Assembly: GCA_024278345.1 (NCBI GenBank)
Contig: JAJRTK010000270.1
Span: forward strand, 1-41,638
Direction: 5' to 3'
Length of the DNA stretch: 41,638 bases
From: a bacterium
GTDB taxonomy: Bacteria > CSSED10-310 > JAJRTK01
Shown here: in pieces, positions 11,511-41,225 of the stretch
Numbering within the stretch: position 1 is the stretch's first letter
How the letters are laid out: each line of letters starts with the position of its first letter
Program-made: the position numbers and the translations under genes
Notes under the pieces: generated by a model
What the model was told of the DNA's origin: nothing
Seen by the model: only the letters and a program-made list of their open reading frames with translations
Database searches by the model: none

Positions 11511-11529
11511 AGACATGACCTCCTGCTCT

Positions 11530-14714: not shown

Positions 14715-14738
14715 ACGGCAAACCGCCTTCTTTTCTTT

Positions 14739-14790: not shown

Positions 14791-14793
14791 AGC

Positions 14794-15501
14794 TCATTCC
14801 CCAAGATCCAACTGCTCCTTCTCCACGGTTTTCCAGCCGGAGAAGATGGATCCTATCACGCCGTTCCGCTCTAGCGCCGAAACCTCAATGGTGCTGAAAA
14901 CGTGGTTCACCACAAACAAGAGGATCAGCCACATCCCAAAATGGTGGAGCCAGCGAGCCGACTGGAGGCCTCCCACCAGGGGAACCAAGAAACCGAATGC
15001 CCCCATGGGATAATCGACGTGGGCGCTCACCGAATAGATAGCCAAACCCGTGATGATCATCATCAGATAGAGCAAGAAAACCCCGACATAGGCGACCCCG
15101 GCAAGAGCATTGTGCCCGACGGTTGGCGGCGGGTTACGTCGCAGAAAGAGGTAGTAAGAGAGCATGTCGGCCGCGCCTCTCACGCGGCGGGTGGATGTGG
15201 GCACGAATTGGTTCCACCGGGCGTACGCATTTCCCAATAACATCCAGAGAAGCCTGGTGACCACGGCTAAACTGAACACGATGGCCCCGTAGAAATGAAT
15301 GAGCTTCGCGGTTCCCATGTAAAAATTGTCCGACGCCTCGCCTGGAGCGATGAGGAAAGGGTTCCCCATATAGATGCCGGTCCCCGCAAGGACCAGCACC
15401 GACAAGGCGATGAGCCAGTGCGTCAGGCGCACCGGCGCTTCCCATACATAGACAAGAACCTTGTCCTTGCCGGAGTCTTGAACCATGATCGGCTGTTTCA
15501 T
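14794..15501 (-). CDS. hyaC: Ni/Fe-hydrogenase b-type cytochrome subunit
   Basis: The 235-residue membrane protein has about four transmembrane helices and the HyaC/HupC heme-ligand pattern: VRLTHWLIALSVLVL in helix 1, LIHFYGAIVFSLAVVTR, and a late WLHHFGMWLILLFVVNHV. It anchors the small/large dimer to the membrane and passes electrons from H2 to quinone. Its ATG at 15501 overlaps the large-subunit stop by 4 bp, so translation is coupled. Length is normal. Confidence 0.94.
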   Translation of the reverse strand: MKQPIMVQDSGKDKVLVYVWEAPVRLTHWLIALSVLVLAGTGIYMGNPFLIAPGEASDNFYMGTAKLIHFYGAIVFSLAVVTRLLWMLLGNAYARWNQFVPTSTRRVRGAADMLSYYLFLRRNPPPTVGHNALAGVAYVGVFLLYLMMIITGLAIYSVSAHVDYPMGAFGFLVPLVGGLQSARWLHHFGMWLILLFVVNHVFSTIEVSALERNGVIGSIFSGWKTVEKEQLDLGE

Positions 15502-17204: not shown

Positions 17205-18319
17205 GCTTCTTCTCCTTTCCCACTAGTAGAGGCTGCGCTTTCGGCAATTACCCTCGATTTGCTGCCAGCAATTTTTGCCACCGCGTGAGCCGCGAAGGCC
17301 CCACCAAGTCCCAACGTCGCCCAAAAACCCACCTTGTCAATGTTCGGCTGGGCCCCAGTTTTATCCAGAGCCAAATGGTTGTAGTAAGGGGCCATGCTGT
17401 CCCAGAAATTGGGCTCGGCGCAACCAAGACAGGGATGGCCGCAACCGATAGGCCAGTTCGTCCCGGAATTCCACCGGATGTTTGGACAATTCTGGAACGT
17501 CACGGGTCCCTTACACCCCATCTTGAAGAGGCAATAGCCCCGCCGATGTCCGGGGTCGCCCCACTGCTCCACATACTGCCCCGAATCGAAATGGGCTCGG
17601 CGCTCGCAGTTGTCATGAATAGACTTGCCATAGGCGAAAAGAGGCCGCCGATACCGATCCAGATCCGGCCAGCGGTCAAATGTGAGCCAATAGACTAGAA
17701 GAGCCGCCAGATTCTCCGCATTGGCCGGACAGGCGGAAAGATTGATGAGGTTCTTCAGGCCAGGTACCGCTTCAGCGACGCTCAGGGCCCCCGTGGGATT
17801 CGGTGACGCCGCTGGCAATCCGCCGAAGGAAGCACACGTACCGATGGCGATGGTGGCCCCGGCCTGACTGCAAACCTCATTGGCAATGGAGAGCGCCGAC
17901 CGGCCTCCGATGGTGCAATAGGCTCCGCCGGCCCCCGTGGGAATCGAGCCCTCCACCACGGCGATGAACTTGCCCTTGTTCTCTTCCACGGCTTTTTTCA
18001 GAGCTTCCTCGGCACGATGCCCCGCTGCCGCCATCACGGTCTCGTGATAATCGATGGAGAGGAGATCCAAGATGATCTCTGCCGCCGACGGCTGGCCCGC
18101 TCGCAGGAAAGATTCCGTATTCCCGCAGCAGTCCTGGAACTCGAGCCAAACAAGAGTCGGCTTCGGCTTCGTGGCCACGGCCTTCGCAATCTCCGCCTCC
18201 GCCTTACCGGGCAGGGCGAACGACGCGGCCACCGCCGCACAAAAGCCCAAGAACTCCCGCCTGGACACCCCCCGTGCGTTCAATTCTTCCAAGAACTGGT
18301 CGTTCACTCGCTTGTCCAA
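17201..18319 (-). CDS. hyaA: [NiFe]-hydrogenase small subunit with Tat signal
   Basis: The 372-residue protein opens with a twin-arginine signal (SRREFLGFCAAVAASFALPG) that exports the folded dimer. Cluster ligands are visible: GTCASFGG and LSACPAN (proximal), HDNCERR with CLFKMGCKGP (distal), and FQNCPNI with HPCLGCAEP (medial). A C-terminal helix (FWATLGLGGAFAAHAVAKIAG) anchors it. The first proximal motif reads DCCGNTES (Cys64, Cys65, Gly66, Asn67), so the usual second Cys of CxxC is Asn. At the position of the extra Cys found after GTC in oxygen-tolerant six-Cys enzymes it has Gly. The start is TTG at 18319 with AGGAGG five bases upstream. Confidence 0.96.
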   Translation of the reverse strand: MDKRVNDQFLEELNARGVSRREFLGFCAAVAASFALPGKAEAEIAKAVATKPKPTLVWLEFQDCCGNTESFLRAGQPSAAEIILDLLSIDYHETVMAAAGHRAEEALKKAVEENKGKFIAVVEGSIPTGAGGAYCTIGGRSALSIANEVCSQAGATIAIGTCASFGGLPAASPNPTGALSVAEAVPGLKNLINLSACPANAENLAALLVYWLTFDRWPDLDRYRRPLFAYGKSIHDNCERRAHFDSGQYVEQWGDPGHRRGYCLFKMGCKGPVTFQNCPNIRWNSGTNWPIGCGHPCLGCAEPNFWDSMAPYYNHLALDKTGAQPNIDKVGFWATLGLGGAFAAHAVAKIAGSKSRVIAESAASTSGKGEEA

Positions 18320-25553: not shown

Positions 25554-27053
25554 TCAGGCGGTCTGTTTCCGTCCGATTCCGTATTCTTTCAGCCGGCGGT
25601 AAAGAGTGCGCCGGGGCATTTTGAGGAGCTTCGCGGCAGCGACTTTGTTGCCTCCGGTCATCTGGAGGACGCGCAGAATGTGGGTACGCTCCACGGCAGC
25701 GAGGTCGAGAGTCTGTTCCGAAGGCTTCGCGGAAAAAGAAGCTTTCCCACCGGATTCCCGGGTTGCATCGGGCGCCGGCGTGCCGTTCTCTTGCATGGGG
25801 CGAACCTCAGACACCCCCCTGGCCTGGACCGCTTCGAGGACCTCTTGAGGTAGATGATCGAGGGTAATGGTACCGGAAGACAAGATGACAGCGCGCTCCA
25901 AAACATTGAACAGCTCGCGCACGTTCCCGGGCCATCGGTAGGCGGCCAAGGCTTCCAGTGCTTCGGGTTGGATTCGGTAATCGCGGGCCCGAGAGATCGG
26001 CGCGGTTGTTTGGAAGTGGTTCGCCAGCAGAGGAATGTCCTCCAGCCGGTCTCGCAAGGGCGGGATCTCGATGTGGAAAACGTTGAGGCGGTAGTAGAGA
26101 TCGGTACGGAAAGAGCCTTCGAGGGTCATCTTGTGGAGGTTCCGGTTCGTGGCGGCCAGGAAACGGACGTTGACGGTGAGTTCTCGCTCTCCGCCTACGG
26201 GCCGAACGGTCCCGGACTCCAGAACCCGAAGGAGCTTTGCCTGTGCGGCAAGGGGCATCTCACCGATCTCGTCGATAAAGAGGGTTCCCTTGTCAGCGAG
26301 CTCCAGCGCTCCCCGGCGAGGCTCGGCGGCGCTGGTGAAAGCGCCGCGAACATGCCCGAACAGCTCGCTCTCCACCAGACCTTCGGGAATAGCGCCGGCG
26401 TGGAGAACCACGAAGCTGCCTCCCGACCGGGAGCTACCGTGGTGGAGCGCCCGCGCGACGAGTTCCTTGCCCGTGCCGCTTTCCCCAAGGACGAGGACCG
26501 TCGATTCCGTGGCTGCAACCCGTTCCACGAGTCGTCGAACCTCGACAATGGCACCGGAAGTTCCCACGAGCTCTGCCGAGGGTTCGATCCGCCGGATTTG
26601 TTCTCGAAGGCGCGTGCTTTCCAGCCAAAGCCGACGCTTCTCCAGCGCGCCTGCAACCGCGTCCTCCAGCTCTGATAGTCTACACGGCTTGAGCAGATAG
26701 TCGTAGGCACCCTTTTTCATGGCTCCCACAGCCGTCTCCACCGTCGCGTGCCCCGTGATCAGGATCACCTCGAGCCCAGAATCAATTTCTTGGAGTCTCT
26801 CCAGAAGCTCGATGCCGCTCATTCCGGGCATTTTCATATCGACAAGAGCAACGTCGAAGCTCCTTCGCCTGGCCAATGTGGCGGCGGCTTCACCATCTGC
26901 CGCGCTGGTGACATGGTGCCCCAAATCTTCCAAATGTTCGGCGACAACGGTGCGAAAATCCTCTTCATCGTCAACGACCAAGAGTCTGCCCTCTTCCAGT
27001 CCCGAAACTTCCGGCAGCTTATTGCCACGATGTTTTTTTGTTCCTTTTTTCAC
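25554..27053 (-). CDS. sigma-54-dependent response regulator, NtrC/ZraR type
   Basis: The 499-residue protein has a receiver domain (LLVVDDEEDFRT, phosphorylatable Asp in VALVDMKMPGMSG, Lys in YDYLLKPCR), an AAA+ domain (Walker A GESGTGKELVARAL, Walker B LFIDEIGEM, then RFLAATNRNL and YRWPGNVREL) and a C-terminal Fis-type helix-turn-helix (GGNKVAAAKLLKMPRRTLYRRL). When phosphorylated it should open sigma-54 promoters. The loop that touches sigma-54 reads GAFTSA, not GAFTGA. The GTG at 27053 with GGAGG eight bases upstream is preferred to a TTG at 27077. It lies 40 bp after the kinase gene, with which it is probably co-transcribed. Confidence 0.94.
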   Translation of the reverse strand: MKKGTKKHRGNKLPEVSGLEEGRLLVVDDEEDFRTVVAEHLEDLGHHVTSAADGEAAATLARRRSFDVALVDMKMPGMSGIELLERLQEIDSGLEVILITGHATVETAVGAMKKGAYDYLLKPCRLSELEDAVAGALEKRRLWLESTRLREQIRRIEPSAELVGTSGAIVEVRRLVERVAATESTVLVLGESGTGKELVARALHHGSSRSGGSFVVLHAGAIPEGLVESELFGHVRGAFTSAAEPRRGALELADKGTLFIDEIGEMPLAAQAKLLRVLESGTVRPVGGERELTVNVRFLAATNRNLHKMTLEGSFRTDLYYRLNVFHIEIPPLRDRLEDIPLLANHFQTTAPISRARDYRIQPEALEALAAYRWPGNVRELFNVLERAVILSSGTITLDHLPQEVLEAVQARGVSEVRPMQENGTPAPDATRESGGKASFSAKPSEQTLDLAAVERTHILRVLQMTGGNKVAAAKLLKMPRRTLYRRLKEYGIGRKQTA

Positions 27054-27093
27054 GATTCGACCCTCCGAACTCCTCAATCACAAACCTGCTCCA

Positions 27094-28665
27094 TCAGTTG
27101 CTACGGACTTGGCAAGGAAGAAAAACTTCGAAGCGAGCTCCATTCCCAACTTCGGAGACCACTTCCATGCGTCCTCCAAGCTGTTCCAAAAGAGCCTGAC
27201 AGATGCTCAATCCCAGCCCCGTCCCCTTACCAGCGGGCTTGGTCGTGTAGAAGGGACGGAAGATCCGCTGGGCTTCCTCGTACCCGATCCCCGGACCGCT
27301 GTCGGTTACGGATAGGCGGACAAAGGTTTCGTGGTCCACAGCCTCGATCACTACGGAATCCCCTGATTCAGTAACATCGAGAGCATTGGACAGGAGGTTG
27401 ACCAGCACCTGCGCCACTGAGTCGGGGTCGGTGACCAGGTCGGGCAATCCATCCTCCATCTGGAGCGCGATGGAGACACCGCGGGTCTCCGCGTCGGCCT
27501 CCACCACGGCCATCGCCTCGTTGACCACATCCTTTAGATGGATTCGCCGAGGTTTGAACGGTTTTTCTCGCGCAAAGCTCAAGAGGCTCCGCGTGATTTG
27601 CTTGCAGCGATCGGTGTTTCTAAGGATCCTCTCCAGGTGGCTTGGAAGCCGGCGCTTCAACCTGTCGTCATCTCGTTCCATCAGGTCGAGTAACTTCTCC
27701 GCCGACGCCGCCACCGATGCAAGGGGGTTGTTCAGACCGTGGGCCAAGCCCGCGGCCAGCTCTCCCACCGCGGCCAAGCGGTGGGCTCGAACGAGCTGAG
27801 CTGTCCGCGACTGGATTTCGCCTTCAAGAGTTCGTGCGTGCTCTTCTATCTGTCGGCGAGATTTCCCCAATTCATTCATGGCTTCAGCGTAGGCATTTCG
27901 GACTTCCCCCAGCTCATCGGTGCCCAACTTGGGAAGCGCCATTTGTGGCCCTCCACGCTTCACTTGTTCCATGGCACGACGGAGCAGGGCCAAGCGGCGA
28001 ATGACGATTCGATCGACCAAAAAATTCACCGCCACCGCCAAGACAAGGGCCAGCACCAACGAAAACCCCAAGTTTCGCGCCAAGGACTCCCAAGCAAGCT
28101 TCGTGATCGTGTCGTAGGGCTCGAGATAGAGCAAAGACCACCCCATCTCTCCATGCCCGGCGTAACCGGAAAGCGATTCCCTCAGAAACAGGTAGGACTC
28201 CCCGGCCAATCCAACCGTCCTAAACTTGTCCGAGCTTTTCTGAGGCGCCTTCCAACTCGCCACGACGTCAGGCGGTATTTCTCGGCCCATCCAATCGGGC
28301 TCCGTGCTTGCCATCACGACTTCCCTTGGATCGAGCATGAGCAGGATGTGGCGCCCGCTCCGCTGATGGTCGAATCGCCGCATATGTCGATCCACGGCCG
28401 CGGAAAACTGAGACAGCGCCTGTTGCGCCCTGGATCGGTCTTCCATGGAATCTACAAAAGAAAGGATGGCCGCGACGTTTTCACCCATGTGCGCGTGGAG
28501 CTGATCCATGAGCATCCGTGTTTCGATGCGGTATCGCCAGAGGGAAGAGAGGAGGGAGACAAGGAAGATTGCCGCTGAGGTCGCCAGTCCGATTCGCCGG
28601 CCCAGGGCGCTATAGCCGAACCGCCGGCCAACTGGGCTGGAGGAGCCAAAGGAATTCCCGCTCAT
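27094..28665 (-). CDS. membrane sensor histidine kinase (ZraS/NtrB-like)
   Basis: The roughly 523-residue protein has a first helix (IGLATSAAIFLVSLLSSLW), a periplasmic sensing region of about 140 residues, a second helix (LGFSLVLALVLAVAVNFLVD), a HAMP-like linker, a His box (ELAAGLAHGLNNPLASVA), and an ATP-binding domain with N box (NLLSNALDV), G1 (DSGPGIG) and G2 (GKGTGLGLSI). The residue after the phospho-His is Gly where Glu or Asp is usual. The ATG at 28665 is chosen because the predicted sigma-54 promoter starts transcription near 28711, too close to the other in-frame starts (28704 and 28716). From its position it probably senses envelope metal. Confidence 0.92.
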   Translation of the reverse strand: MSGNSFGSSSPVGRRFGYSALGRRIGLATSAAIFLVSLLSSLWRYRIETRMLMDQLHAHMGENVAAILSFVDSMEDRSRAQQALSQFSAAVDRHMRRFDHQRSGRHILLMLDPREVVMASTEPDWMGREIPPDVVASWKAPQKSSDKFRTVGLAGESYLFLRESLSGYAGHGEMGWSLLYLEPYDTITKLAWESLARNLGFSLVLALVLAVAVNFLVDRIVIRRLALLRRAMEQVKRGGPQMALPKLGTDELGEVRNAYAEAMNELGKSRRQIEEHARTLEGEIQSRTAQLVRAHRLAAVGELAAGLAHGLNNPLASVAASAEKLLDLMERDDDRLKRRLPSHLERILRNTDRCKQITRSLLSFAREKPFKPRRIHLKDVVNEAMAVVEADAETRGVSIALQMEDGLPDLVTDPDSVAQVLVNLLSNALDVTESGDSVVIEAVDHETFVRLSVTDSGPGIGYEEAQRIFRPFYTTKPAGKGTGLGLSICQALLEQLGGRMEVVSEVGNGARFEVFLPCQVRSN

Positions 28666-28709
28666 GTGATCACCGATCTCCCTAAAATAGAACCTCTGCG
28701 ACATTTCTT

Positions 28710-28738
28710 TTGGCACCAGTGCGCAAAAGACGTGCCAA
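28710..28738. promoter_or_regulatory. 7-bp inverted repeat overlapping the kinase promoter
   Basis: TTGGCAC (28710-28716) and GTGCCAA (28732-28738) are perfect inverted arms with a 15-base spacer. One arm contains the -24 element of the minus-strand sigma-54 promoter. It may be an operator or a leader hairpin. Confidence 0.4.
28722..28737 (-). promoter_or_regulatory. sigma-54 (-24/-12) promoter of the kinase/regulator pair
   Basis: The minus strand reads TGGCAC, five bases (GTCTT), then TTGCG: a near-perfect match to the RpoN consensus, including GG-N10-GC. Transcription would begin near 28711, giving a leader of about 45 bases before the kinase ATG at 28665. A sigma-54 activator encoded in the same operon suggests self-regulation. 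Confidence 0.75.
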
Positions 28739-28890
28739 CACCAAAGCAGACATTTTTTCAGTTCCTGGTCTTGTTTTCCCGGGTTCCTTGATCACCGGGT
28801 GGGCTGTGGCTTGGGAAGGCCGCGCCAGGCTGAGGTCCGTTTGGATGGATCAGATCCGGCCCTGCAAAGGAAAAGGGTCCGGGGGTGTCA

Positions 28891-28905
28891 GGGCCAGATT
28901 GGCCC
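28891..28905. promoter_or_regulatory. palindrome, candidate activator site
   Basis: GGGCCA, GAT, TGGCCC is a perfect inverted repeat with 6-bp arms. It lies about 155 bp upstream of the kinase -24 element and 200 bp upstream of the efflux one, a distance range used by NtrC-type activators. Assignment is by position only. Confidence 0.35.
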
Positions 28906-29035
28906 AGATTGGGATGATTTGGCACACCCGCCACTGGCAGCCCCGTCTCTAGCAGCCCGGAGATGATTTTAACTACATTTCATTGCTAAAGCATGGTTTG
29001 TCGGAAGGAAAAGTGTGCCGTTTTGGCAATGCCGC

Positions 29036-29047
29036 TCTCTCGAGAGA
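29036..29047. promoter_or_regulatory. 12-bp perfect palindrome, candidate activator site
   Basis: TCTCTCGAGAGA is a perfect 12-bp palindrome ending 60 bp before the efflux -24 element, a plausible upstream activating position. It could equally be chance or a site for another regulator. Confidence 0.35.
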
Positions 29048-29107
29048 TCCGTTGTCATTCTATTTTATCCTGTTATTTCATGGCATTACCATGATCCAGA
29101 GAATGAC

Positions 29108-29123
29108 TGGCACGTTCTTCGCT
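29108..29123 (+). promoter_or_regulatory. sigma-54 (-24/-12) promoter of the metal-efflux genes
   Basis: TGGCAC, five bases (GTTCT), then TCGCT keeps the GG-N10-GC spacing, with one departure from TTGC. It is identical at 12 of 16 positions to the kinase-facing element on the other strand. Transcription would start near 29133, about 68 bases before the first efflux gene. Confidence 0.65.
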
Positions 29124-29200
29124 AATGGGGGTGGGACCGAGGATTCACCTGATGTGAGTGCGAAGCCGATTGACTTGTTACTGGAAGGGATGTGAGAGCC

Positions 29201-29656
29201 GTGGAAAAGCCAACTCTGTCGAACAAGATCCTGTGGACGGCGCTGCTCTTGGTTCTGGGCCTTGGCTACCTCCTGGCGGTGATACAGATCATCGTAACGA
29301 CGGGAGTGACTCCGGGGGCAATTCTGGAGCATTTTCGGGGCGATGGGGAGATGATTCAAGCGATGGATCTGGATCGGTTGGTGATGCTTTCTCATGTCCA
29401 CTTGCTGGGAATGCCGCTCATCGTCTTTCCGGCTGCTTGGATCTTCAGCCAGAGCCAGTTTGGGGAGCGGTTCAAGGCGACCCTCATCGGCGCGGCCTTT
29501 CTTGGAATCGTCCTTGATGTCGGTTCCTGGTGGGGACTCCGCTACGTGGGCGGAATGATGGTGGCTCCTCTTATTCTTGGAGGCGCTCTGTTGGGCGTCA
29601 GCTTTGCGAGCATGACCCTGCTCAGCCTCATGACAATTTGGAGAACGAAATCATGA
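29201..29656 (+). CDS. four-helix membrane protein of unknown function
   Basis: I do not recognise the family. The roughly 151-residue product has about four hydrophobic helices: ILWTALLLVLGLGYLLAVIQ, VHLLGMPLIVFPAAWIF, ATLIGAAFLGIVLDVGSWWG and LILGGALLGVSFASMTLLSL. The segment MLSHVHLLGM puts two His and Met residues at a membrane edge, which could bind metal or heme. GTG at 29201 has AAGGGA ten bases upstream; GTG at 29192 is the alternative. It is the first gene after the sigma-54 promoter, and its stop overlaps the next start (ATGA), so a role in the metal response is inferred from position only. Confidence 0.75.
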   Translation: MEKPTLSNKILWTALLLVLGLGYLLAVIQIIVTTGVTPGAILEHFRGDGEMIQAMDLDRLVMLSHVHLLGMPLIVFPAAWIFSQSQFGERFKATLIGAAFLGIVLDVGSWWGLRYVGGMMVAPLILGGALLGVSFASMTLLSLMTIWRTKS

Positions 29657-30282
29657 AGAAACTCTTGTCCCTTGCCAGTTTGGCGCTTTTTCTCACTGCA
29701 TTTTCGGTGAGTGCCCACAAATCGGTGGCAACTCAATCTGAACGTCAAGTCCTGGCCAGCATTCTTCCCAATGGTGAGAAAGCGTCACCAGAAACCATCG
29801 AGTGGCACGGGGCATCAGAAGAATTGGTTGCCAAGATCCCGCGTCTGAAAAAGCTGTCACTGGCGAATGCTTCGGAAAAAGGAGGCGAGAGCGCCGTTCA
29901 TCTGGCCCGGTTCACCGTGCAGGGCGACTGGGGCCCCATCGAGGCGCTTGCGGCAATCCAGGACGGGAAGCTCCTTGGCCTCGGCATCCTCTCGTTCACC
30001 AAGCACAAGGGCGACATCGTGACGAAGGAGGTTTTTCTCCGACAATTTCGCGGGTTGAAGCTCGCCACGATTCGAGCGGCCAAATTGAAAAAGATCCCGG
30101 CGGAGCCTTTGGCTGTGGAGGCGCTTCGCGCCGGGCTCATTGGAGTGAATTCCGCCTTGGAAAATGCCGGTTCGGAAGGAGAAGATCACCATGGTGGCAA
30201 GGAAGGTCATCATGGCGGCGATGCTTCAATGCCCAAGCACCACGATGACGGGCATTCCGAGAAGGGCGGAGGCCACCGGTAA
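29653..30282 (+). CDS. exported His-rich protein, possible FMN-binding-like fold
   Basis: The 209-residue protein starts with a clear signal peptide (MKKLLSLASLALFLTAFSVSAHK). The middle (VHLARFTVQGDWGPIEALAAIQDGKLLGLGIL, then FLRQFRGLK) loosely resembles the FMN_bind domain of RnfG/NosR, but the usual SGAT attachment motif is absent. The last 40 residues are His-rich (EDHHGGKEGHHGGDASMPKHHDDGH), as in periplasmic metal-binding proteins. Its ATG overlaps the upstream stop by 4 bp. It probably binds copper or another soft metal before export; any redox role is a guess. Confidence 0.8.
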   Translation: MKKLLSLASLALFLTAFSVSAHKSVATQSERQVLASILPNGEKASPETIEWHGASEELVAKIPRLKKLSLANASEKGGESAVHLARFTVQGDWGPIEALAAIQDGKLLGLGILSFTKHKGDIVTKEVFLRQFRGLKLATIRAAKLKKIPAEPLAVEALRAGLIGVNSALENAGSEGEDHHGGKEGHHGGDASMPKHHDDGHSEKGGGHR

Positions 30283-30372
30283 AATCCTGACACCTCCGCC
30301 ACACCAAGCGGATCACTTTTTTCCGTCGCCGACCAGAGGTTTCTGGCCACTAGACCGAGAGGAAACGACGCA

Positions 30373-32736
30373 ATGTCCGATTCATGTTGTCATCATTCCG
30401 CAGCCGAAAAGGTCGATAAGGGTCTGGCGATGCGCCAGCCAGAGAGCGCTTTGGAAGGCAAGGAAGGTTCAGGCGAGGATCGTTGCCACCATTCGAAGGC
30501 AGAGAAGGCAAAGAGTCAATATACCTGCCCCATGCACCCGGAGGTTCGGAAGCCCAAGCCGGGCTCCTGCCCGGAGTGCGGCATGGAGTTGGAGCCTGTC
30601 CATCCTCTGCCAGCGGCGGGGAAAACCGAATACACCTGTCCCATGCACCCGGAAATTGTTACCGATGAGCCGGGTTCATGCCCCATCTGCGGGATGGCGC
30701 TAGAGGCCCGAACGGTGGAGATCGAACCGGAAAACGCCGAACTCCTGGACATGCGCCGCCGTTTCTGGGTGAGTGCTGTTCTGACCTTGCCGGTTTTTGT
30801 CACGGCCATGGCGGAGGCGATTCCTGGTGTGTCACTGGAAAGAGTCGCTTCCCCTCAATCGCTGGCACTCTTTCAGATGCTGCTAGCCACTCCCGTCGTC
30901 CTATGGGGTGGCTGGCCCTTCTTTGTCCGCGGGGTTCGCTCGGTGGTGACGCTGAAACTCAATATGTTCACTCTCATCAGTTTGGGCATTGGCGTCGCCT
31001 GGGTGTACAGCGTCGTGGCGACCTTGCTGCCCGGGATCTTTCCAGCCTCATTCCGGGGCGCGACTGGTGGGGTGGCCGTCTACTTTGAAGCTGCGGCAGT
31101 CATCACCACGTTGGTTCTTTTGGGTCAGGTCCTGGAGTTGATGGCCCGGAGTCAGACAAGTGCGGCTATCCGGGCGCTTCTGGGACTTGCCCCCAAGGTT
31201 GCCCGGCGACTCAATTCCGATGGAAGCGAGGAAGATGTTCCATTGGACCAGGTTCAGGTGGGCGACAAGTTGCGGGTTCGACCGGGCGAAAAAATCCCCG
31301 TGGACGGCACGGTCTTGGAGGGCGCCAGCTCCGTGGACGAAGCAATGGTCACAGGAGAACCCATGCCGGTCCAAAAATCCGCGGGTGACAAGGTCATCGG
31401 CGCCACGGTGAACGGGACGGGCGGCATGGTGGTTCAGGCTGATCGAGTTGGCTCCGACACACTTCTTTCGCAAATCATCCAGATGGTGGCGGAGGCACAG
31501 CGCAGTCGCGCCCCCATTCAAAAGCTTGCGGATCGTGCGGCGGCCTACTTTGTTCCGGCGGTCATCGCGGCCTCGGTTCTCACTTTTGCCATTTGGGGCA
31601 TTTGGGGACCCGAGCCCAGGATGGCCTTTGCGCTGATCAATGCGGTGGCCGTGCTGATCATTGCCTGTCCTTGCGCCTTGGGCCTGGCGACCCCCATGTC
31701 GATCATGGTGTCGACGGGAAAGGGGGCAACGGCGGGAGTTCTCTTCAAAAACGCCGAGGCCATCGAGGTCTTGCGAAAGGTGGATACGCTTGTGGTCGAT
31801 AAGACGGGAACCCTCACCCAGGGCAAGCCGAAACTCGTCTCCATCGTTCCCGCCAGCCACTGGAACGAGGAAGAATTGCTGAGGCTTGCCGCCAGTCTTG
31901 AGCGGGGCAGCGAGCATCCTCTGGCCGAAGCCATCGTCCAAAGTGCCGAGGATCGGAAAGTAACCCTTGCAAAGACCCATGAATTTGACTCCTTGACCGG
32001 AAGAGGCGTCATGGGGACCGTGGACAGCCGCAAGATTGTCCTTGGCAACCTCCGCCTCATGGATGAACAAGGGGTTTCTACCGGTGAGTTGCTACAAAAA
32101 GCAGAATCTCTCCGGACAGAGGGACAAACCGTGATGTTCACGGCCATCGACGGGAGGCTTGCGGGTCTTCTTGGCGTCGCCGATCCCATCAAAGAGACGA
32201 CCCCGGCGGCCATTGAGCGGTTGCACAAAGAGGGAATCCATGTGGTCATGCTCACGGGAGACAGCAAGACCACGGCGAAAGCGGTAGCCGCCAGGTTGGG
32301 GATCGACGACGTGGTGGCCGAAGTTTTGCCGGACCAGAAAGCCGAGGCTGTCCGCCGGTTCCAAAAAGAGGACCGTATTGTCGCCATGGCTGGCGATGGG
32401 ATCAACGATGCTCCGGCTCTGGCCCAAGCAAACGTCGGAATCGCCATGGGCACGGGCACCGATGTCGCCATGGCCAGTGCAGGCATCACCCTTATCAAGG
32501 GCGACTTGGGAGGGATTGTCCGAGCGCGCACCCTTTCGAGGGCAACCATGCGCAATATCCAGCAGAACCTCTTCTTTGCCTTCATCTACAATACGCTTGG
32601 GATACCGGTTGCCGCCGGGGTTCTCTACCCTGTCTTCGGTCTCTTGCTTAGCCCCATGATCGCGGCGGCTGCCATGAGCTTCAGCTCGCTCTCGATCATC
32701 GTCAACGCGCTACGGCTCCGATCACTCCAAGTCTAG
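30373..32736 (+). CDS. copA: copper-translocating P-type ATPase (P1B-1), CopA/SilP-like
   Basis: This 787-residue pump has an N-terminal tail with two CHHSxAEK motifs (residues 5-13 and 38-45), then two heavy-metal-binding domains of the YTCPMHPE...CPxCGM type (about 50-75 and 87-113), not ferredoxin-like CxxC domains. The catalytic core is complete: TGE loop (VTGEPMPV), CPC in the membrane (432-434), DKTGTLTQG with phosphorylated Asp476, the SEHPLAEAI nucleotide motif and [10 protein letters not shown]. The late helices have YN and MSFSSLS, as in Cu(I) pumps. It moves Cu(I) or Ag(I) out of the cytoplasm to the periplasm, where the RND system takes over. AGAGGA precedes the ATG. Confidence 0.93.
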
Positions 32737-32758: not shown

Positions 32759-34534
32759 ATGAAGACTCTATTCTACCGATTCTCCGTGTTCCTTGCCGCC
32801 CTCGGGATCGCCGGCTGCGCTCGGACACTCCCCTTTCGGGCCACTGGTGCCCAAGCTGCCTACGAACGGGCCTGGGTCGATCAAGATTCCAAGGAACCCG
32901 AAAGTCAGAAGACCCGAGACGGACAGCTCCGACTCGCCGCCAACAAGGAAGGTTCTACCCCACCTGACAAAATGCACCGGCGCAATTCAGGGCGCCCCAT
33001 TCATCGGACCGAGCTGGATGACGAGGCCATGCCGGTACTGGACAAGGAAGCCGATCTGGACGATTACCTGGCCTACGCAGCCTTGAAGAATCCAGGGCTG
33101 CAAGCAGCCTTCAATCGATGGAAAGCCGCCCTGGAGAGAATCGCCCAGGTGGAATCACTCCCTGATCCAAAGCTCACCTACGGTTTTTTCATCCGGCGGG
33201 TGGAGACCAGAGTGGGGCCCCAGCGCCAGCGACTCAGCCTGTCTCAGGCAATCCCCTGGCTCGGCAAGCTAAGGCTCCGGGGCAAGCGGGCCGGCGAAGC
33301 CGCGGAAGTGGAAAAGCGCCGCTACGACCAACTTGAGCTCGAGCTCTTCGACAAGGTCAAGAATGCCTACGCCGAGCTCTACTATCTGGGCCGCTCAATC
33401 ACGATCACCGAAGACAACTTGATCCTGCTGGCCAACTGGGAAAAAGTGGCTCGCGCCAAGTATCGAGTGGGAACCGCACCTCATGCAGCGGTGATCAAGG
33501 CCCAGGTAGAGCTGGGCAAGCTCGAAGATCTTTTGGAAACTCGAAGAAAGCTGAAGCCGCCTTTGGAGGCTCGCCTCAACGCACTCCTGGGTCGCCCGGC
33601 GCCAGCCAGAATTCCATGGCCCGAGAGTCTTCCCCACGACCCGATCCAGGTCGATGTAGATGATCTGTTCGCTGAGCTTGCCGAGTCGAACGCCGAGTTA
33701 AAGGTTTACGACGCCAAAATCTCTACGGCGAACGTCGGCATTGCCCTTGCCAAGGAAGATTACTATCCAGATTTTGGTGCCAGCCTCTCCTACAACGAGA
33801 CCGGAGGCGCCTTGAATCCGGATGCCGACGATTCAGGGAAAGACGCCATCATGGCCGCGTTCAGCGTCACGTTGCCCGTCTGGCGAAAAAAGCTCCGCGC
33901 CGGTCTCCTGGAGGCCCAGCTCAGAGAACGGATGGTCCGCCTCCAGCGCGAAGATCGAGTCAACCGCCTCGAATCTCAGCTTGCTGGCGCCTTCTTCCAA
34001 CTGGACGATGCCCAGCGAAAAATTTTCCTTTACCGCGACACCTTGCTCCCACTGGCAATGGAGTCTCTCAAAGCGACGGGCGCGGCTTTTGCGGCCGGCC
34101 GCACTGATTTTTTGAACTTCATCGATGCCCAGCGGATTCTCTTGGAGTTCGAACTCTCCCTCGAAAGAGCCCTCGCCGATCATCTCCAGAGCCAAGCGAC
34201 AATCGAGCGCCTCATCAATCGGCGCCTGACAGCGAAGACGAACACTGAAGCCTCAGACCCATTGGCCCCGGCTCATAACGAAACCCTACCAAAAGATGAT
34301 GTACCTGTGAGGCATGAAATCCCGGCGAAAGATGGACTTCCCGCGGACGAGCCCCCCACGACGGGCAATGGCCTCCCGGCTGACAGCCAAGGATTGCCGA
34401 ACTCACCCTCGGCGCCCGAGAGACCCTTTGGCAAACCGGACACGCCTTTTGGCAAGCCGGAGTCGAAGTCCCCAATCCGTCCGGCTACGACCAGACACTC
34501 GGATGCAACTGACGAGAAGGAGCCTCAAAAATGA
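32759..34534 (+). CDS. outer-membrane efflux channel, TolC/CusC family
   Basis: The 591-residue protein starts with a lipoprotein-like signal (FLAALGIAGCA). The body is a typical outer-membrane factor: paired helical repeats beginning LAYAALKNPGLQAAFNRWKAALERIAQVESLPDPKLTYGFF and LSLSQAIPWLGKLRLRGKRAGEAAE, and ending LLPLAMESLKATGAAFAAGRTDFLNFIDAQRILLEFELSLERALAD. A Pro-rich, low-complexity tail of about 90 residues follows, with two PFGKP units; this is not usual for the family. It forms the exit duct for the adaptor and pump encoded next and overlaps the adaptor start by 4 bp. Confidence 0.9.
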   Translation: MKTLFYRFSVFLAALGIAGCARTLPFRATGAQAAYERAWVDQDSKEPESQKTRDGQLRLAANKEGSTPPDKMHRRNSGRPIHRTELDDEAMPVLDKEADLDDYLAYAALKNPGLQAAFNRWKAALERIAQVESLPDPKLTYGFFIRRVETRVGPQRQRLSLSQAIPWLGKLRLRGKRAGEAAEVEKRRYDQLELELFDKVKNAYAELYYLGRSITITEDNLILLANWEKVARAKYRVGTAPHAAVIKAQVELGKLEDLLETRRKLKPPLEARLNALLGRPAPARIPWPESLPHDPIQVDVDDLFAELAESNAELKVYDAKISTANVGIALAKEDYYPDFGASLSYNETGGALNPDADDSGKDAIMAAFSVTLPVWRKKLRAGLLEAQLRERMVRLQREDRVNRLESQLAGAFFQLDDAQRKIFLYRDTLLPLAMESLKATGAAFAAGRTDFLNFIDAQRILLEFELSLERALADHLQSQATIERLINRRLTAKTNTEASDPLAPAHNETLPKDDVPVRHEIPAKDGLPADEPPTTGNGLPADSQGLPNSPSAPERPFGKPDTPFGKPESKSPIRPATTRHSDATDEKEPQK

Positions 34535-36639
34535 CCCACGACCAAAACCCTTCCCCAAACAAAACAAACCCCGATTCCGACGACCTTGGAGCTCATCAAG
34601 GCACTCGAGAAGCAACCGGTCACACAGGCCCAGCCAAGCCAAAGCGATGGAAAACGATCATGCTGGTGGCCGCTGCGATCGTTTCTGGATACTGGCTACG
34701 AGGAACGCCACAGCCAATTCCGGCGCGTGCCGCGCAAGAAGAGACAGGTTCTGAAGAAGCCAAGAAACCCACCATTTGGACCTGTTCCATGCACCCTCAG
34801 ATCCGCCTGCCCAAACCCGGCAAATGCCCCATCTGCGGGATGACTCTCATTCCGCTGGAAGAAGGATCGGATTCGGGGCCGGAAGAGGGTCCTCGGGAGC
34901 TTCGCATGAGCGAGACCGCCCGCTTGCTGTCGGAGATCCTGACTGCGCCCGTGGAGAGAAGGCAGGTGGAGGTTCAAGTGCGGATGGTGGGGAAGCTTGA
35001 CTACGATGAAACGCGGACGGGAACCATCACGTCGTGGGTTCCCGGACGGCTGGATCGGCTTTATGTGGACTACACCGGAGTCCCGGTGAAGAAGGGTGAC
35101 CACATGGTTTACCTGTACAGCCCCGAACTCTTGAGTGCCCAGGAAGAGCTTCTACAGGCCGTAAAGACAGCCAAGGAGCTTGAGGGAAGCCGGGTGAGCA
35201 TCGCCCGAGAATCGGCGGAAGCGACCGTTGAGGCGTCCAGGGATAAGCTTCGGCTCTGGGGGCTAACAAAACGGCAGATCGCCAACATCGAAAAGCGGGG
35301 AAAGACTACGGACCATCTGACGATCTATGCACCCATGGGCGGAATCGTCATCCACAAGACGGCTCTGGAAGGAATGTACGTCCAGACCGGCACAAAAATC
35401 TACACCATCGCCGATCTGAGCCACCTTTGGCTGAAGCTTGACGCCTATGAATCAGACATGGCCTGGATCCGGTACGGTCAGAAGGTGGAGTTCACCACCG
35501 AAGCCTATCCCGGCGAGGTTTTCGAAGGGCGGATCTCCTTCATCGATCCGATTCTCAATGAAAAGACGCGAACCGTCAAGCTGCGGGTCAACGTAGAGAA
35601 CCCGAACGGTCGTCTCAAGCCTGGAATGTTCGCCCGAGCCGTAGTAAAAGCACGGGTCTCTGGCAAGAATGTCGTCATCGATTCGGCACTGGCGGGCAAG
35701 TGGCTTGGCAGGATGCATCCTGAAATCGTCCGAGACAAACCTGGCAGGTGTCCCGTCTGCGGTATGCCCTTGGTCAAGGCCGAAACCCTTGGTTTCGCTA
35801 AAGAAACAGACGCCGAGGCTGCGGCCCCGTTGGTCATTCCGGTGACAGCGCCGCTGATCACCGGACTTCGAGCGGTGGTCTACGTGGAAATACCGGACAG
35901 AAAGCAACCCACCTATGAAGGGCGGGAGGTCGTTCTAGGTCCCAGGGCAGGTGACTACTACGTCGTCAAGAGCGGTCTGGAAGAAGGCGAACAGGTTGTG
36001 GTCAGCGGCAACTTCAAGATTGACAGCGCCATCCAGATCGCCGCGAAGCCAAGCATGATGTCTCCCGAAGGTGGAATGGCACCCTCCGGGCACAATCACG
36101 GATCTTCTGGCGATCGGGCGGGAGCCAAGAAAACCACCGGCACCAAAGGGAAGGCTTCTCCGTCTCCAAGGGCGGTTCCCAAAGGATTTCAAAAGGCCCT
36201 GGGAGCTGTTTACGAACGCTACCTGGAAGTTCACAAGGCTCTGGCAACCGACGACGAACCCGGTGCCAAGAAGGCAACGGAACAGCTCCTTGCCACTCTG
36301 GAGAAAGTTCCCATGAAGCTGTTGGCCGGTGCCGACCACATGGCCTGGATGCCCCATTCAACGGAAATCAAGGAGAGCGCCCGACAGCTTCAGGCCGCCT
36401 CGGGGCTCAAGGACCAGAGAAACGGTTTCGCCCTTTTGTCCGAGTCGCTGGCATCGGCTCTGGACGATTTTGGTTTTCAGGACGCCAAGGAAGCGTACAA
36501 GATGAAGTGTCCCATGGTTTTCCAGGGCCGCGGAGCGATATGGCTCCAGTCCGAAACAAAGGTGGCAAACCCCTATTATGGGACGGCGATGCCAGGTTGT
36601 GGCTCCAAGATCGCGGAAATAGGGAAAAGCAGCGAGTAG
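34531..36639 (+). CDS. RND efflux adaptor, CusB family, with two metal-binding domains and a fused DUF3347-like domain
   Basis: The 702-residue protein has a membrane anchor (TIMLVAAAIVSGYWLRG), a first heavy-metal-binding domain (WTCSMHPQ...CPICGM, about 83-108), the adaptor core (GRLDRLYVDYTGVPVKKGD, LTIYAPMGGIVIHKTALEGMYVQTG, IADLSHLWLKLDAYESDMAWI), a second metal-binding domain (MHPEIVRDKPGRCPVCGMPL, about 395-415), a His/Gly linker and a C-terminal helical domain ending CPMVFQGRGAIWLQSE and NPYYGTAMPGCG. The last part matches DUF3347 and is repeated as a separate gene at 40704. CusB-type adaptors capture Cu(I)/Ag(I) in the periplasm and pass it to the pump. The length is well above the usual 400. 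Confidence 0.92.
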   Translation: MTHDQNPSPNKTNPDSDDLGAHQGTREATGHTGPAKPKRWKTIMLVAAAIVSGYWLRGTPQPIPARAAQEETGSEEAKKPTIWTCSMHPQIRLPKPGKCPICGMTLIPLEEGSDSGPEEGPRELRMSETARLLSEILTAPVERRQVEVQVRMVGKLDYDETRTGTITSWVPGRLDRLYVDYTGVPVKKGDHMVYLYSPELLSAQEELLQAVKTAKELEGSRVSIARESAEATVEASRDKLRLWGLTKRQIANIEKRGKTTDHLTIYAPMGGIVIHKTALEGMYVQTGTKIYTIADLSHLWLKLDAYESDMAWIRYGQKVEFTTEAYPGEVFEGRISFIDPILNEKTRTVKLRVNVENPNGRLKPGMFARAVVKARVSGKNVVIDSALAGKWLGRMHPEIVRDKPGRCPVCGMPLVKAETLGFAKETDAEAAAPLVIPVTAPLITGLRAVVYVEIPDRKQPTYEGREVVLGPRAGDYYVVKSGLEEGEQVVVSGNFKIDSAIQIAAKPSMMSPEGGMAPSGHNHGSSGDRAGAKKTTGTKGKASPSPRAVPKGFQKALGAVYERYLEVHKALATDDEPGAKKATEQLLATLEKVPMKLLAGADHMAWMPHSTEIKESARQLQAASGLKDQRNGFALLSESLASALDDFGFQDAKEAYKMKCPMVFQGRGAIWLQSETKVANPYYGTAMPGCGSKIAEIGKSSE

Positions 36640-36898
36640 CGCTCCGAATCAGCTTTGCTCACTGGTGGCCGCCCCTGGCGGCTGCCGGTAAGGGGATTCA
36701 CCCGCCCTTGAGAAACGGATGCTCTCCGCTTTTCGGGGCAAATGCCTAGTCGTGGGATGACTGTAAGCGAGTAGCAGGAGCGGCCGCGAGTGATGGGAGC
36801 GGAGCACAACCATAAGAATAAATATCGTTTTTGGCCTCCTTTTGAAGCACAAGGGTGAGGCCACCCAGGATTTTTTGAGTTCTCAGGAAAGGACCATA
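36640..36898. other. 259-bp gap between adaptor and pump genes
   Basis: Adaptor and pump genes are usually adjacent, but here a GC-rich palindromic stretch (36667-36690) and a copy of the dispersed repeat intervene. No gene was recognised. It may attenuate or re-initiate transcription between the two genes. Confidence 0.4.
36770..36813 (+). repeat. degenerate dispersed intergenic repeat, copy 4
   Basis: The blocks AGCGAGTAGCAGGAGCGG and GCGAGTGATGGGAGCGG followed by AGCACAACCA are the clearest copy of the family seen at 11072, 14739, 24097 and 41311. Confidence 0.5.
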
Positions 36899-39800
36899 AT
36901 GGCTGAACACCAGCAACCAGCGGCTTCGGCTTCCTGGATCGACAAAGTTTTGCGCTTCAGCTTGGAAAACAAGCTGGTCATTGGCATGCTCATGATCTTC
37001 GTCGTGATGTGGGGCATCATGGTGGCGCCGTTTGATTGGGACATCGACTGGATGCCGCGAGACCCGGTGCCCGTGGATGCGATTCCGGATATCGGTGAAA
37101 ACCAGCAGATCGTGTTCACACGGTGGATGGGTCGGTCGCCGCAGGACGTCGAGGACCAGATCACCTATCCGATGACGGTCTCACTCCTGGGCATCCCGGG
37201 GATCAAGACGATCCGAAGCTACTCTTTCTTCGGTTTTTCCAGCATCTACGTCATTTTCAAGGAGGACATAGACTTTTACTGGTCGCGCTCGCGGATTTTG
37301 GAGAAGCTCAACAGCCTGCCGGCGGGAACTCTGCCACCGGGCGTTCAGCCGACACTGGGGCCAGACGCCACGGCTCTCGGCCAGATTTACTGGTACACGC
37401 TGGAAGGCCGGGATGAAGAAGGAAACCCCACGGGCGGCTGGGATCCTCACGAGCTCCGGACGGTGCAGGATTGGTACGTACGCTACGCTCTCATGTCGGC
37501 CGATGGCGTCTCTGAAGTGGCGTCGGTGGGCGGTTTGGAGAAAGAGTATCAGATCGACGTTGATCCCGATGCCATGCGTGCTCACGGTATCAAGCTCGAA
37601 GAGGTTTTCATGGCCGTACGGATGTCGAACCTGGACGTGGGCGCAAGGACCATCGAGGTCAACAAGGTAGAGTACATCATCCGCGGAATCGGCTTCGTCA
37701 AGAAAGTAGAAGACCTTGAAAACTCCGTCATCAAGGTCAATGACAACGTTCCCATCTACCTGAGAAATGTGGCGACCGTATCCCTGGGACCAGCTCTTCG
37801 ACGAGGCGCGCTGGACAAGGGGGGCACGGAAGTAGTGGGCGGCGTCGTCGTCGTCCGGTACGGCGAAAACCCTCTGACCACCATCAAAAACGTCAAGAAA
37901 AAAATCGAGGAAATCGCCCCTGGCCTGCCGAAAAAAGTGCTGCCGGACGGGCGAACCTCGCAGGTGACCGTCGTTCCCTTCTACGACCGGACCGGACTCA
38001 TTTACGAGACCTTGGGAACTCTTGAAACAGCGCTGTCAGAAGAGATTCTTGTCACGATCATCGTTGTGGTGGTCATGGTGATGCACCTGCGGAGTTCGAT
38101 TCTGATTTCGGGGCTGCTCCCCATTGCCGTCTTGATGTGCTTCATCGCCATGAAGCAGTTCGGCGTGGACGCCAACATCGTCGCGCTTTCTGGAATCGCT
38201 ATCGCTATCGGGACCATGGTGGATATGGGGGTGGTGGTCTGCGAAAACATCCTCAAACACCTGGACCGAGCCGTGCCCGAGGAGGACCGGCTGGAGGTGA
38301 TTTACCGTGGGGCCAGCGAAGTGGGCGGAGCGGTGGTGACGGCCATTTCCACGACGGTCGTGAGCTTCTTGCCGGTCTTCACCATGGAAGCGGCTGAAGG
38401 GAAGTTGTTCAAGCCTTTGGCCTATACGAAGACGTTTGCGCTCATCGCATCGGTGGTGGTGGCGATTACCATGATACCGCCGCTGGCCCATCTGTTGTTC
38501 ACGAAACCTAACGGTCGGAAAAAGAGAGCGGGGCATTTCACCGGTCTCCTTCTGCCTCTTGGACTCCTGGCAAACCTCTATGACCGGGTGTTTAGGCGGA
38601 TTCCACCGGCAATCAAGCGTTTTTCTTCCCTGCTCCTCAACGGCATCGTGGTGCTGGCCGTGGGCTTGCTCTTGAGTGAGCACTGGCTGCCGCTGGGACC
38701 GGAGAAGGGAACGCTTTTAAATTTTATCTTCGTCGGCACCCTCCTGGGCAGCCTGTTGTTGGGAATCCAACTTTTGCAGCGGATTTATTCGCCCGTGCAA
38801 TGGTGGTGCTTGAGACACAAGATGGCTTTTCTTTCTGTTTCCGGCGCCTTGATCCTCTGGGGTGGAGTGGTCTGGCTGGGCTTTGGAACAATGTTTGCCC
38901 CTGTCCCCAAGCTCCTTGGGAAAGCGGGGATCGATCCAGATAAAATCGTCCGAAGCGGTATCTGGACCAGTGCATCGGAAGAATTCCCGGGTATGGGCAA
39001 AGAGTTCATGCCACCGCTAGACGAGGGATCCTACCTCTTCATGCCGACGAGCATGCCCCACGCCTCCATCGGAGAAGCGCTGGACGTGCTGCAAAAGCTG
39101 GACATGGCCATCAACTCCATTCCCGAAGTCGATCTGGCCGTGGGTAAGCTGGGCCGCGTGGAAAGCCCTCTCGATCCGGCACCCATTTCCATGATCGAGA
39201 CGGTCATCAACTACAAGCCAGAGTACATCACCGGGAAGGATGGGCATCGTCTCAGTTTTCGGTACGACGAGGCCACCAGTCAGTTCGTCCGCGACGAACA
39301 AGGCGAGCTCATTCCCGATCCCGACGGGCGCCCCTTCCGGCAGTGGAGGCCCGAGATCAAGAATCCCAACGACATTTGGGACGAGATCGTCCGGGTCACG
39401 AAGATCCCAGGAACAACGTCGGCGCCGAAACTCCAACCGATTGCGGCCCGCATCGTCATGCTCCAGAGCGGGATGCGTGCGCCCATGGGCATCAAGGTCA
39501 AGGGACCCGACCTGGAAACCATCGAGAAGGTGGGTTTACAGCTTGAACAATATCTCAAACAGATCCCCTCAGTGGAGCCCGCGGCTGTCTTTGCAGACCG
39601 GATCGTCGGCAAACCCTACCTGGAGATCGTCATCGATCGAAACGCCATCGCCCGGTACGGCATCAAGCTCAAACAAGTCCAAGACGTCATCGAAATCGCC
39701 ATTGGCGGGCGAAAAATCACGACAACGGTGGAGGGACGGGAACGGTACGGCGTCCGCGTCCGATACCGGCGGGAGCTCCGAGACAACATCGAATCCCTGG

Positions 39801-40675
39801 GCCGGATCCTGGTCCCCGCCCCTGATGGCGCCCAAATTCCCCTTATCCAGATGGCCGAGATCACATACATCCGCGGCCCCCAGGTCATCAAGAGCGAAGA
39901 CACCTTCCTGGTGGGGTACGTTCTGTTTGACATGAAGCCAGGCGAGGCCGAAGTAGATGTCGTGGAAGACTGCATGCGGTTCTTGCAAGAGAAGATCGAC
40001 AGTGGCGAGTTCCGGCTTCCCGCCGGCGTGAGCTACACCTTCGCCGGAAGCTACGAAAACCAGATCCGGTCGGAAAAAAAGCTCACGGTCGTTCTCCCTC
40101 TGGCGCTCTTCGTCATTTTCATGATCCTCTATTTCCAGTTCAAGGCCATCAGCACGACGCTTCTGGTTTTCTCGGGAATCCTGGTGGCGTGGGCCGGAGG
40201 CTTCCAGATGCTTTGGTTTTATGCGCAGCCCTGGTTCCTGGATTTTTCGGTCTTCGGCGTGAATATGAGGGATCTTTTCCAGGTTCATCCCATCAACCTC
40301 AGCGTCGCCGTCTGGGTCGGGTTTCTGGCCCTCTTCGGTATCGCCTCGGACAACGGCGTCATCATGGCCACCTACCTCGATCAAGTTTTCGAGGAACGAG
40401 ATCCCGACAGTCTCCAGGAAATCCGCGAAGCGACAGTCTTCGCCGGAATGCGCAGAATCCGCCCCTGCCTCATGACCGTAGGCACAACGATTCTTGCTTT
40501 GATCCCCGTTCTTACCTCCACGGGCCGAGGAGCAGACGTGATGGTCCCCATGGCGATCCCCTCCTTTGGCGGGATGAGCGTTGTGCTCATCACGGTCTTC
40601 CTTGTCCCCACACTCTACTGCTCCATCAAGGAGCGCCAATGGAAGCGGCGGCAACGATGGAAAGACGCCGCTTAG
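36899..40675 (+). CDS. cusA: heavy-metal efflux RND pump, CusA family
   Basis: This 1258-residue inner-membrane pump has the HME-RND pattern: FSLENKLVIGMLMIFVVMWG in helix 1, DPVPVDAIPDIGENQQIVFTRW, SPQDVEDQITYPMT, proton-relay Asp in AIGTMVDMGVVVCENI, and MPPLDEGSYLFMPTSMP. By alignment from memory with CusA, two of its three metal-channel Met positions appear kept (SYLFMP and RIVMLQSG), while the middle one does not. It is about 200 residues longer than CusA: two extra hydrophobic segments follow the first six helices (LLNGIVVLAVGLLLSEHW and LLNFIFVGTLLGSLLLGIQL), and an extra loop lies before WDEIVRVTKIPG. The ATG at 36899 has GGAAAGGA five bases upstream. Confidence 0.93.
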   Translation: MAEHQQPAASASWIDKVLRFSLENKLVIGMLMIFVVMWGIMVAPFDWDIDWMPRDPVPVDAIPDIGENQQIVFTRWMGRSPQDVEDQITYPMTVSLLGIPGIKTIRSYSFFGFSSIYVIFKEDIDFYWSRSRILEKLNSLPAGTLPPGVQPTLGPDATALGQIYWYTLEGRDEEGNPTGGWDPHELRTVQDWYVRYALMSADGVSEVASVGGLEKEYQIDVDPDAMRAHGIKLEEVFMAVRMSNLDVGARTIEVNKVEYIIRGIGFVKKVEDLENSVIKVNDNVPIYLRNVATVSLGPALRRGALDKGGTEVVGGVVVVRYGENPLTTIKNVKKKIEEIAPGLPKKVLPDGRTSQVTVVPFYDRTGLIYETLGTLETALSEEILVTIIVVVVMVMHLRSSILISGLLPIAVLMCFIAMKQFGVDANIVALSGIAIAIGTMVDMGVVVCENILKHLDRAVPEEDRLEVIYRGASEVGGAVVTAISTTVVSFLPVFTMEAAEGKLFKPLAYTKTFALIASVVVAITMIPPLAHLLFTKPNGRKKRAGHFTGLLLPLGLLANLYDRVFRRIPPAIKRFSSLLLNGIVVLAVGLLLSEHWLPLGPEKGTLLNFIFVGTLLGSLLLGIQLLQRIYSPVQWWCLRHKMAFLSVSGALILWGGVVWLGFGTMFAPVPKLLGKAGIDPDKIVRSGIWTSASEEFPGMGKEFMPPLDEGSYLFMPTSMPHASIGEALDVLQKLDMAINSIPEVDLAVGKLGRVESPLDPAPISMIETVINYKPEYITGKDGHRLSFRYDEATSQFVRDEQGELIPDPDGRPFRQWRPEIKNPNDIWDEIVRVTKIPGTTSAPKLQPIAARIVMLQSGMRAPMGIKVKGPDLETIEKVGLQLEQYLKQIPSVEPAAVFADRIVGKPYLEIVIDRNAIARYGIKLKQVQDVIEIAIGGRKITTTVEGRERYGVRVRYRRELRDNIESLGRILVPAPDGAQIPLIQMAEITYIRGPQVIKSEDTFLVGYVLFDMKPGEAEVDVVEDCMRFLQEKIDSGEFRLPAGVSYTFAGSYENQIRSEKKLTVVLPLALFVIFMILYFQFKAISTTLLVFSGILVAWAGGFQMLWFYAQPWFLDFSVFGVNMRDLFQVHPINLSVAVWVGFLALFGIASDNGVIMATYLDQVFEERDPDSLQEIREATVFAGMRRIRPCLMTVGTTILALIPVLTSTGRGADVMVPMAIPSFGGMSVVLITVFLVPTLYCSIKERQWKRRQRWKDAA

Positions 40676-40703: not shown

Positions 40704-41225
40704 ATGAGATTCAGTCGATTTCTTTTCTTCATCACCCTCTCCGCGGCAACTCTGGCGGTCTCGCCAACAACTCATGCCTCCGCTACGAAGGACGGTGCCT
40801 CCTCCGTGGTTAACGCCTATTTGACCGTCCATACCGCCCTGGCGGGAGACGATCTCCCGGCGGCACTCAAGGGCTTTATCGCCGTTCAAAAAGCCACCGC
40901 CCACGCCAAGGGCGGGCATGGCGTTTCGGTCGATCTGGCGGTTTCCATCGACAAAGCCGCCTCCACGGGCACCGGATCGAAAAGCCTGGACGAGGCCAGA
41001 AAAGCCTTCAAAGAATTGTCCGTAAAGGTTATCGAGCTGGCAGAGAAGGCGCCTGACGCGGAGCTCCGCGTCGCTTTCTGCCCCATGGTCATGGGCGGCT
41101 CCAGGTGGATCCAAAAAGGGGACACGGTCCAGAACCCCTATTATGGCAAGGCGATGCTGGGCTGCGGAACCGTCGAGGGTCCCGTGGGCAAAGCTGGTGG
41201 CCACAAGGAAAAACATGACCACTAG
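40704..41225 (+). CDS. exported DUF3347-like protein
   Basis: The 173-residue protein has a signal peptide (FSRFLFFITLSAATLAVSPTTHA) and a helical body (VVNAYLTVHTALAGDDLPAALKGF) ending CPMVMGGSRWIQKGD and NPYYGKAMLGCGTVEG, the DUF3347 pattern with conserved Cys, Met and Tyr. The same domain forms the C-terminus of the adaptor at 34531. The tail is His/Lys-rich (GGHKEKHDH). It is probably a periplasmic metal-binding helper of the efflux system; the family has no settled biochemical role. AAGGA lies seven bases before the ATG, and it is the last gene of the locus, 28 bp after the pump. Confidence 0.85.
   Translation: MRFSRFLFFITLSAATLAVSPTTHASATKDGASSVVNAYLTVHTALAGDDLPAALKGFIAVQKATAHAKGGHGVSVDLAVSIDKAASTGTGSKSLDEARKAFKELSVKVIELAEKAPDAELRVAFCPMVMGGSRWIQKGDTVQNPYYGKAMLGCGTVEGPVGKAGGHKEKHDH

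Follow-up and report, generated by a model that had tools for sequence, protein, structure and literature searches.

Predicted back-to-back sigma-54 promoters between a two-component gene pair and a Cus/CopA efflux operon

Described systems closest to the locus

Textbook accounts of Cus control, in which CusRS or CueR acts with sigma-70, derive from enteric bacteria. The locus described here lies in a window of 41,638 nucleotides (the whole stretch of DNA that was analysed) and resembles the CusRS-CusCFBA locus of E. coli in that the two-component genes and a Cus RND operon diverge. The E. coli regulator CusR belongs to the OmpR type, whereas the regulator in the window is NtrC-type and is accompanied by sigma-54 elements; unlike cusCFBA, the operon in the window also includes CopA and DUF3347 genes. 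No full match to CusR was found in the locus, no OmpR-type regulator stands beside its cus genes, and there is no CusR box near the promoters, only weak matches elsewhere in the window.

In Myxococcus, CorSR is a copper-responsive pair of kinase and response regulator, and a sigma-54 interaction domain is part of CorR; upon deletion the copper induction of cuoA and copA falls, most of the induction by copper in Myxococcus xanthus was shown to require the system, and four sigma-54 promoters have been predicted (PMC3707914). The locus in the window shares with it a membrane kinase, a regulator composed of receiver, AAA+ and Fis-type HTH domains, a copper P1B ATPase, an exported His-rich protein and predicted sigma-54 promoters, a likeness that concerns the architecture as published. 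However, the CorSR pair is located inside an operon with a multicopper oxidase and without an RND pump, whereas in the window the pair diverges from the genes of a Cus RND pump and of CopA, and no multicopper oxidase was found by Pfam among the genes of the window operon.

ZraR of E. coli is likewise a sigma-54 activator, and its targets are zraP and zraSR (PMC7657598). The initial annotation had called the pair in the window ZraSR-like, and at the level of organisation there is a likeness: a kinase and a sigma-54 activator, a divergent sigma-54 target, a predicted autoregulation and a link to metals. Nevertheless, the target in the window is an efflux operon, the regulator belongs to another branch of the tree, and no ZraP-like family is present among the neighbouring genes scanned with Pfam. 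The N-terminal half of the kinase has no significant similarity to ZraS (best E value 0.65 over 42 amino acids). Membership of the ZraSR family was rejected on the tree and on the sensor comparison, and the description was given up. A further parallel is found in Desulfovibrio, where activator genes commonly diverge from sigma-54 promoters (PMC4641369) and, as in the window, the activator gene is transcribed away from the sigma-54 promoter. There is no copper or efflux entry in the main text on the sigma-54 regulome of Desulfovibrio vulgaris (PMC4641369), and a cross-phylum survey of sigma-54 mentions ZraR and no copper genes (PMC12316311). Our search, which left most subscription journals outside, found no description of a Cus RND operon under sigma-54 control.

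Two sigma-54 elements and the genes that they face

The initial annotation had described two sigma-54 elements lying back to back and sharing 12 of 16 bases, and both their location and the count were reproduced (table 1). Each differs from the consensus TGGCAYRNNNNTTGCW by one mismatch, and both keep the GG-N10-GC core in the TGGCAY/TTGC context, each pointing toward the gene downstream of it; the plus element deviates in its -12 part, which reads TCGC where the consensus has TTGC. The distance from the end of the minus element to the start codon of the kinase (ATG 28665) is about 57 nt, and the plus element ends 70-80 nt upstream of the first gene of the efflux operon (GTG at 29192 or 29201), each in the correct orientation. 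No other site in the 41.6-kb window comes within one mismatch of the consensus. Sites with two mismatches, 11 in number, are at chance level (13 sites in total, compared with 14.2 expected from shuffles). Across the 6.06 Mb of the genome, a fragmented assembly of 550 contigs, 179 sites come this close to the consensus, while a reversed control pattern gives 108 sites within one mismatch; at the genome-wide rate 0.016 sites would be expected in 535 bp, and the probability of two or more is about 1.2e-4. No sigma-70-like site faces the efflux operon.

Table 1. Positions of the genes and predicted control elements in the window
Feature	Positions	Strand	Remarks
NtrC-type response regulator	25554..27077	minus	Pfam and motif; exact start uncertain
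Membrane sensor histidine kinase	27094..28665	minus	Pfam and sequence; ATG likely start
Sigma-54 -24/-12 element TGGCACGTCTTTTGCG	28722..28737	minus	faces the kinase/regulator genes
Inter-promoter region, presumed to hold activator sites	28740..29107	no strand	~370 bp
Sigma-54 -24/-12 element TGGCACGTTCTTCGCT	29108..29123	plus	faces the efflux operon
Small multi-span membrane protein with HVHLLGMP segment, first operon gene	29192..29656	plus	no Pfam/NCBIfam family
Exported protein with His-rich C-terminus	29653..30282	plus	no known family
CopA-type Cu P1B ATPase	30373..32736	plus	two HMBD motifs, CPC, MSFSS
CusC-type outer-membrane efflux protein	32759..34534	plus	
CusB-type adaptor	34531..36639	plus	HMBD domains and C-terminal DUF3347
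CusA-type RND permease	36899..40675	plus	
Exported DUF3347 protein	40704..41225	plus	resembles the C-terminal domain of CusB

The genome encodes rpoN, and the sigma-54 activator domain has about 26 strong matches in it, compared with 4 OmpR-type DNA-binding domains; MerR matches number 7. With RpoN and this number of activators present, sigma-54 wiring is an ordinary option for the host organism. Its phylum is sparsely sampled, and none of the seven other species covered here is closer than the phylum level. Within the spacer between the promoters, palindromes at 29078-29094, 29034-29049 and 28891-28905 are candidate enhancer sites, whose number is not significant, as 31 of 300 shuffles (10%) reach it.

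The reading of the regulator as an NtrC-type sigma-54 activator is borne out by its Pfam domains, which are a receiver, a sigma-54 AAA+ domain and a Fis-type HTH, the composition of an NtrC-type enhancer-binding protein. In the AAA+ domain (26067-26570) the sigma-54 contact loop GAFTGA is replaced by GAFTSA; Desulfovibrio activators carry GAFTDA and GAFTHA, substitutions reported to be compatible with activity (PMC4641369). The same GAFTSA is seen in another activator of this genome (C76, L182). The kinase has two transmembrane segments (read from the sequence), a periplasmic region of about 150 amino acids, a weak HAMP domain, HisKA and HATPase. The mechanical open reading frame has an alternative start, GTG 28716, but this codon is downstream of the -12 element and still upstream of where the transcript is expected to begin, which makes ATG 28665 the likely start of the kinase. 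The H-box reads HGLNNP instead of HE/DxxNP, with Gly at H+1, the position occupied by Glu or Asp in 33 of the 36 kinases of the fetched loci; the cus-linked kinase of locus L066 also deviates (HALRNP). Judged from the sequence, the Gly at H+1 and the GAFTSA of the regulator are warning signs, neither of which would exclude function. In the sensor region of the kinase there is neither a recognisable copper motif nor a match to any Pfam family, and no relatives emerged when genomes were initially scanned with the kinase sequence. Structure models of the sensor and of the His-rich exported protein had mean pLDDT values of 48-49 and were left unused.

That the efflux locus is of the copper type, as had been proposed, is supported by CusA, by CopA and by the HMBD domains. 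CusA has 408 identities with E. coli CusA over 1047 residues and keeps M573, M623 and M672, which form the metal site, together with E625, D405 and M403, as expected of a Cu(I)/Ag(I) permease. The pump is Cu(I)/Ag(I)-like in that all three of these methionines are kept, and the CPC and MSFSS motifs of CopA mark the Cu(I) class. The operon opens with two genes of no known family (29192-30282), and the terminator-like hairpins within it (30295-30312 and 36853-36866) are at chance level. To the left of the locus, open reading frames at 7716-18319 resemble a [NiFe] hydrogenase cluster with large and small subunits, a b-type cytochrome and maturation genes; this region contains no near-consensus sigma-54 site.

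Related cus loci and the descent of their regulators

CusA was searched in 386 genomes, of which 38 gave a strong match, and a named genome collection contributed the 80 loci nearest to the CusA of the window, which are not a random sample. Within the fetched flanks, many of them on short contigs, an NtrC-type regulator is located near the cus genes in 15 of 116 loci including the window, and a full OmpR-type match in one (L149). The NtrC-linked loci are the window, L035, L040, L050, L051, L054 (same phylum), L055, L066, L072, L081 and L084 (Scalindua), L085 (Hydrogenedentota), L093 (Desulfoferrobacter suflitae), L122 (Gemmatimonadales) and L129. They include a kinase, and the contig stretch of L093 begins inside the regulator. 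The initial annotation had considered sigma-54 control of copper efflux through a ZraSR-like pair an unusual wiring, which is overstated given the precedent of CorSR (PMC3707914) and the ratio of 15 NtrC-type regulators to one OmpR-type near related cus loci. When equal lengths are compared, activators beside the cus block do not significantly outnumber those in the outer flanks (11 versus 7), a comparison in which several of the outer activators, that of the window included, belong to the same block a few genes away. The argument therefore rests on the position of the promoters and on the counts of NtrC-type versus OmpR-type regulators.

With regard to promoter position, a sigma-54 site separates the regulator from the cus genes, or immediately precedes the first gene of the operon, in L051, L054, L066, L072, L093 and L122; the sites of L054, L093 and L122 are perfect and that of L072 has two mismatches. 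Such a site also precedes the cus genes in L059, L096 and L152, where no regulator gene is in view, while the sites of L085 and L129 are on the far side of the regulator and may be promoters of other genes. For 89 loci, sites were counted in a fixed stretch of 2.5 kb ahead of the cus genes, with dinucleotide shuffles providing the expectation; naive gene calling was dropped for these counts because false open reading frames covered intergenic regions, including the plus element of the window. In the sense orientation, 11 sites have one mismatch or none, compared with 1.95 expected, and the difference from the 5 antisense sites is weak (P 0.1). A sense site is present in 5 of the 14 regulator-linked loci and in 6 of the 75 others (Fisher P 0.013); with the window removed, the linked loci give 4 of 13 against the same 6 of 75 (P 0.037). 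All three perfect sense sites belong to regulator-linked loci.

In a tree of 43 activators, whose deeper forks are mostly open and whose bootstrap had not converged, the regulator of the window pairs with a regulator of genome G031 (47% identity, support 100/88). The kinase and regulator of G031 form the closest homologous pair; a functional link through them was dropped because the genes around them are not copper genes. E. coli ZraR groups with the regulator of the Desulfoferrobacter cus locus L093 (support 99/98), the regulators of L051, L081 and L084 form a supported group, and those of L054 and L122 form another. Since the cus-linked regulators belong to different lineages scattered over the tree, their sequences suggest repeated recruitment, the events of which the tree does not allow to be counted. 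The kinases of L035, L040, L051, L081 and L096, which stand beside cus genes, share a membrane N-terminus (roughly IY.R.YY.PIIL....FGL.GG) that the kinase of the window does not have.

Proposed mechanism and alternatives

The locus is probably a sigma-54-driven two-component unit for the Cus/CopA pump, which we regard as the best reading. So read, it represents control of the CorSR kind in a variant whose target is an RND efflux operon, and the variant is also seen beside similar pumps at other loci, in several unrelated phyla. Of the reading proposed in the initial annotation, the sigma-54 elements, the NtrC-type activator and the copper-type efflux operon stood and were joined by rpoN, while the likeness to ZraSR did not stand and the claim of unusual wiring was too strong. 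The membrane kinase would sense a periplasmic signal, which may be copper or silver, or a periplasmic metal stress, and would phosphorylate the NtrC-type regulator. The phosphorylated regulator could then bind within the region of about 370 bp between the promoters, where its ATP hydrolysis would open sigma-54 RNA polymerase at both of the back-to-back promoters. The minus promoter would drive the operon of the kinase and regulator, so that autoregulation creates a positive feedback. The plus promoter would drive, probably as a single transcript, the genes for the transmembrane protein, the His-rich exported protein, CopA, CusC, CusB, CusA and the DUF3347 protein.

It is unlikely that the neighbouring regulator drives both sigma-54 promoters in response to zinc or lead, or to general envelope stress, with the pump as one output among others. 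A sensor domain without a recognisable copper motif or Pfam family would suit such a signal, as would the suggestion that ZraSR of E. coli is possibly a broader envelope stress system (PMC7657598); yet the output genes are of the copper/silver type in the methionine triad, CPC, MSFSS and HMBD, and the pair is located outside the ZraR clade and without ZraP. The two elements are alike, face outward and stand alone in the window, no sigma-70-like site faces the efflux operon, and sigma-54 sites precede cus genes in unrelated loci. These observations make it very unlikely that the pair controls itself and other targets while the efflux operon depends mainly on another regulator acting from another promoter, the plus element being weak or accidental, although the TCGC in its -12 part, the absence of copper genes beside the G031 pair and the presence of MerR-type regulators in the genome would all be consistent with that arrangement.

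The reading as a sigma-54 unit for the pump leads to a wider proposal, which is possible but which we hold only tentatively, that sigma-54 together with an NtrC-type pair is a common and repeatedly recruited form of Cus control outside enterics, more usual there than OmpR-type CusRS, and that the window is one case of it, in which back-to-back promoters switch sensing and export together. Should it apply to Desulfobacterota, Planctomycetota, Gemmatimonadota and phyla that are less well known, the switch for export there would be a promoter that stays silent unless its activator is present and that can be opened only at the expense of ATP, and a testable rule would be available for annotating 'ZraR-like' regulators beside cus genes.

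Two further peculiarities concern the composition of these operons. A receiver-like sequence follows the sigma-54 site immediately and begins the cus operon both in L054 (MKIAIIDDDTALLRSLNI, at about 7920 on the minus strand), where it is joined to the reading frame of CusC, and in L096 (MRIVIIDDDMALLKTLEM, 6307-6681), where it is free-standing. In the window, the C-terminal DUF3347 part of CusB (CPM...NPYYG.AM.GCG) is repeated after CusA as a separate exported protein, which could be a CusF-like metal carrier, and several related loci have an additional match to the same part of CusB, placed between CusB and CusA.
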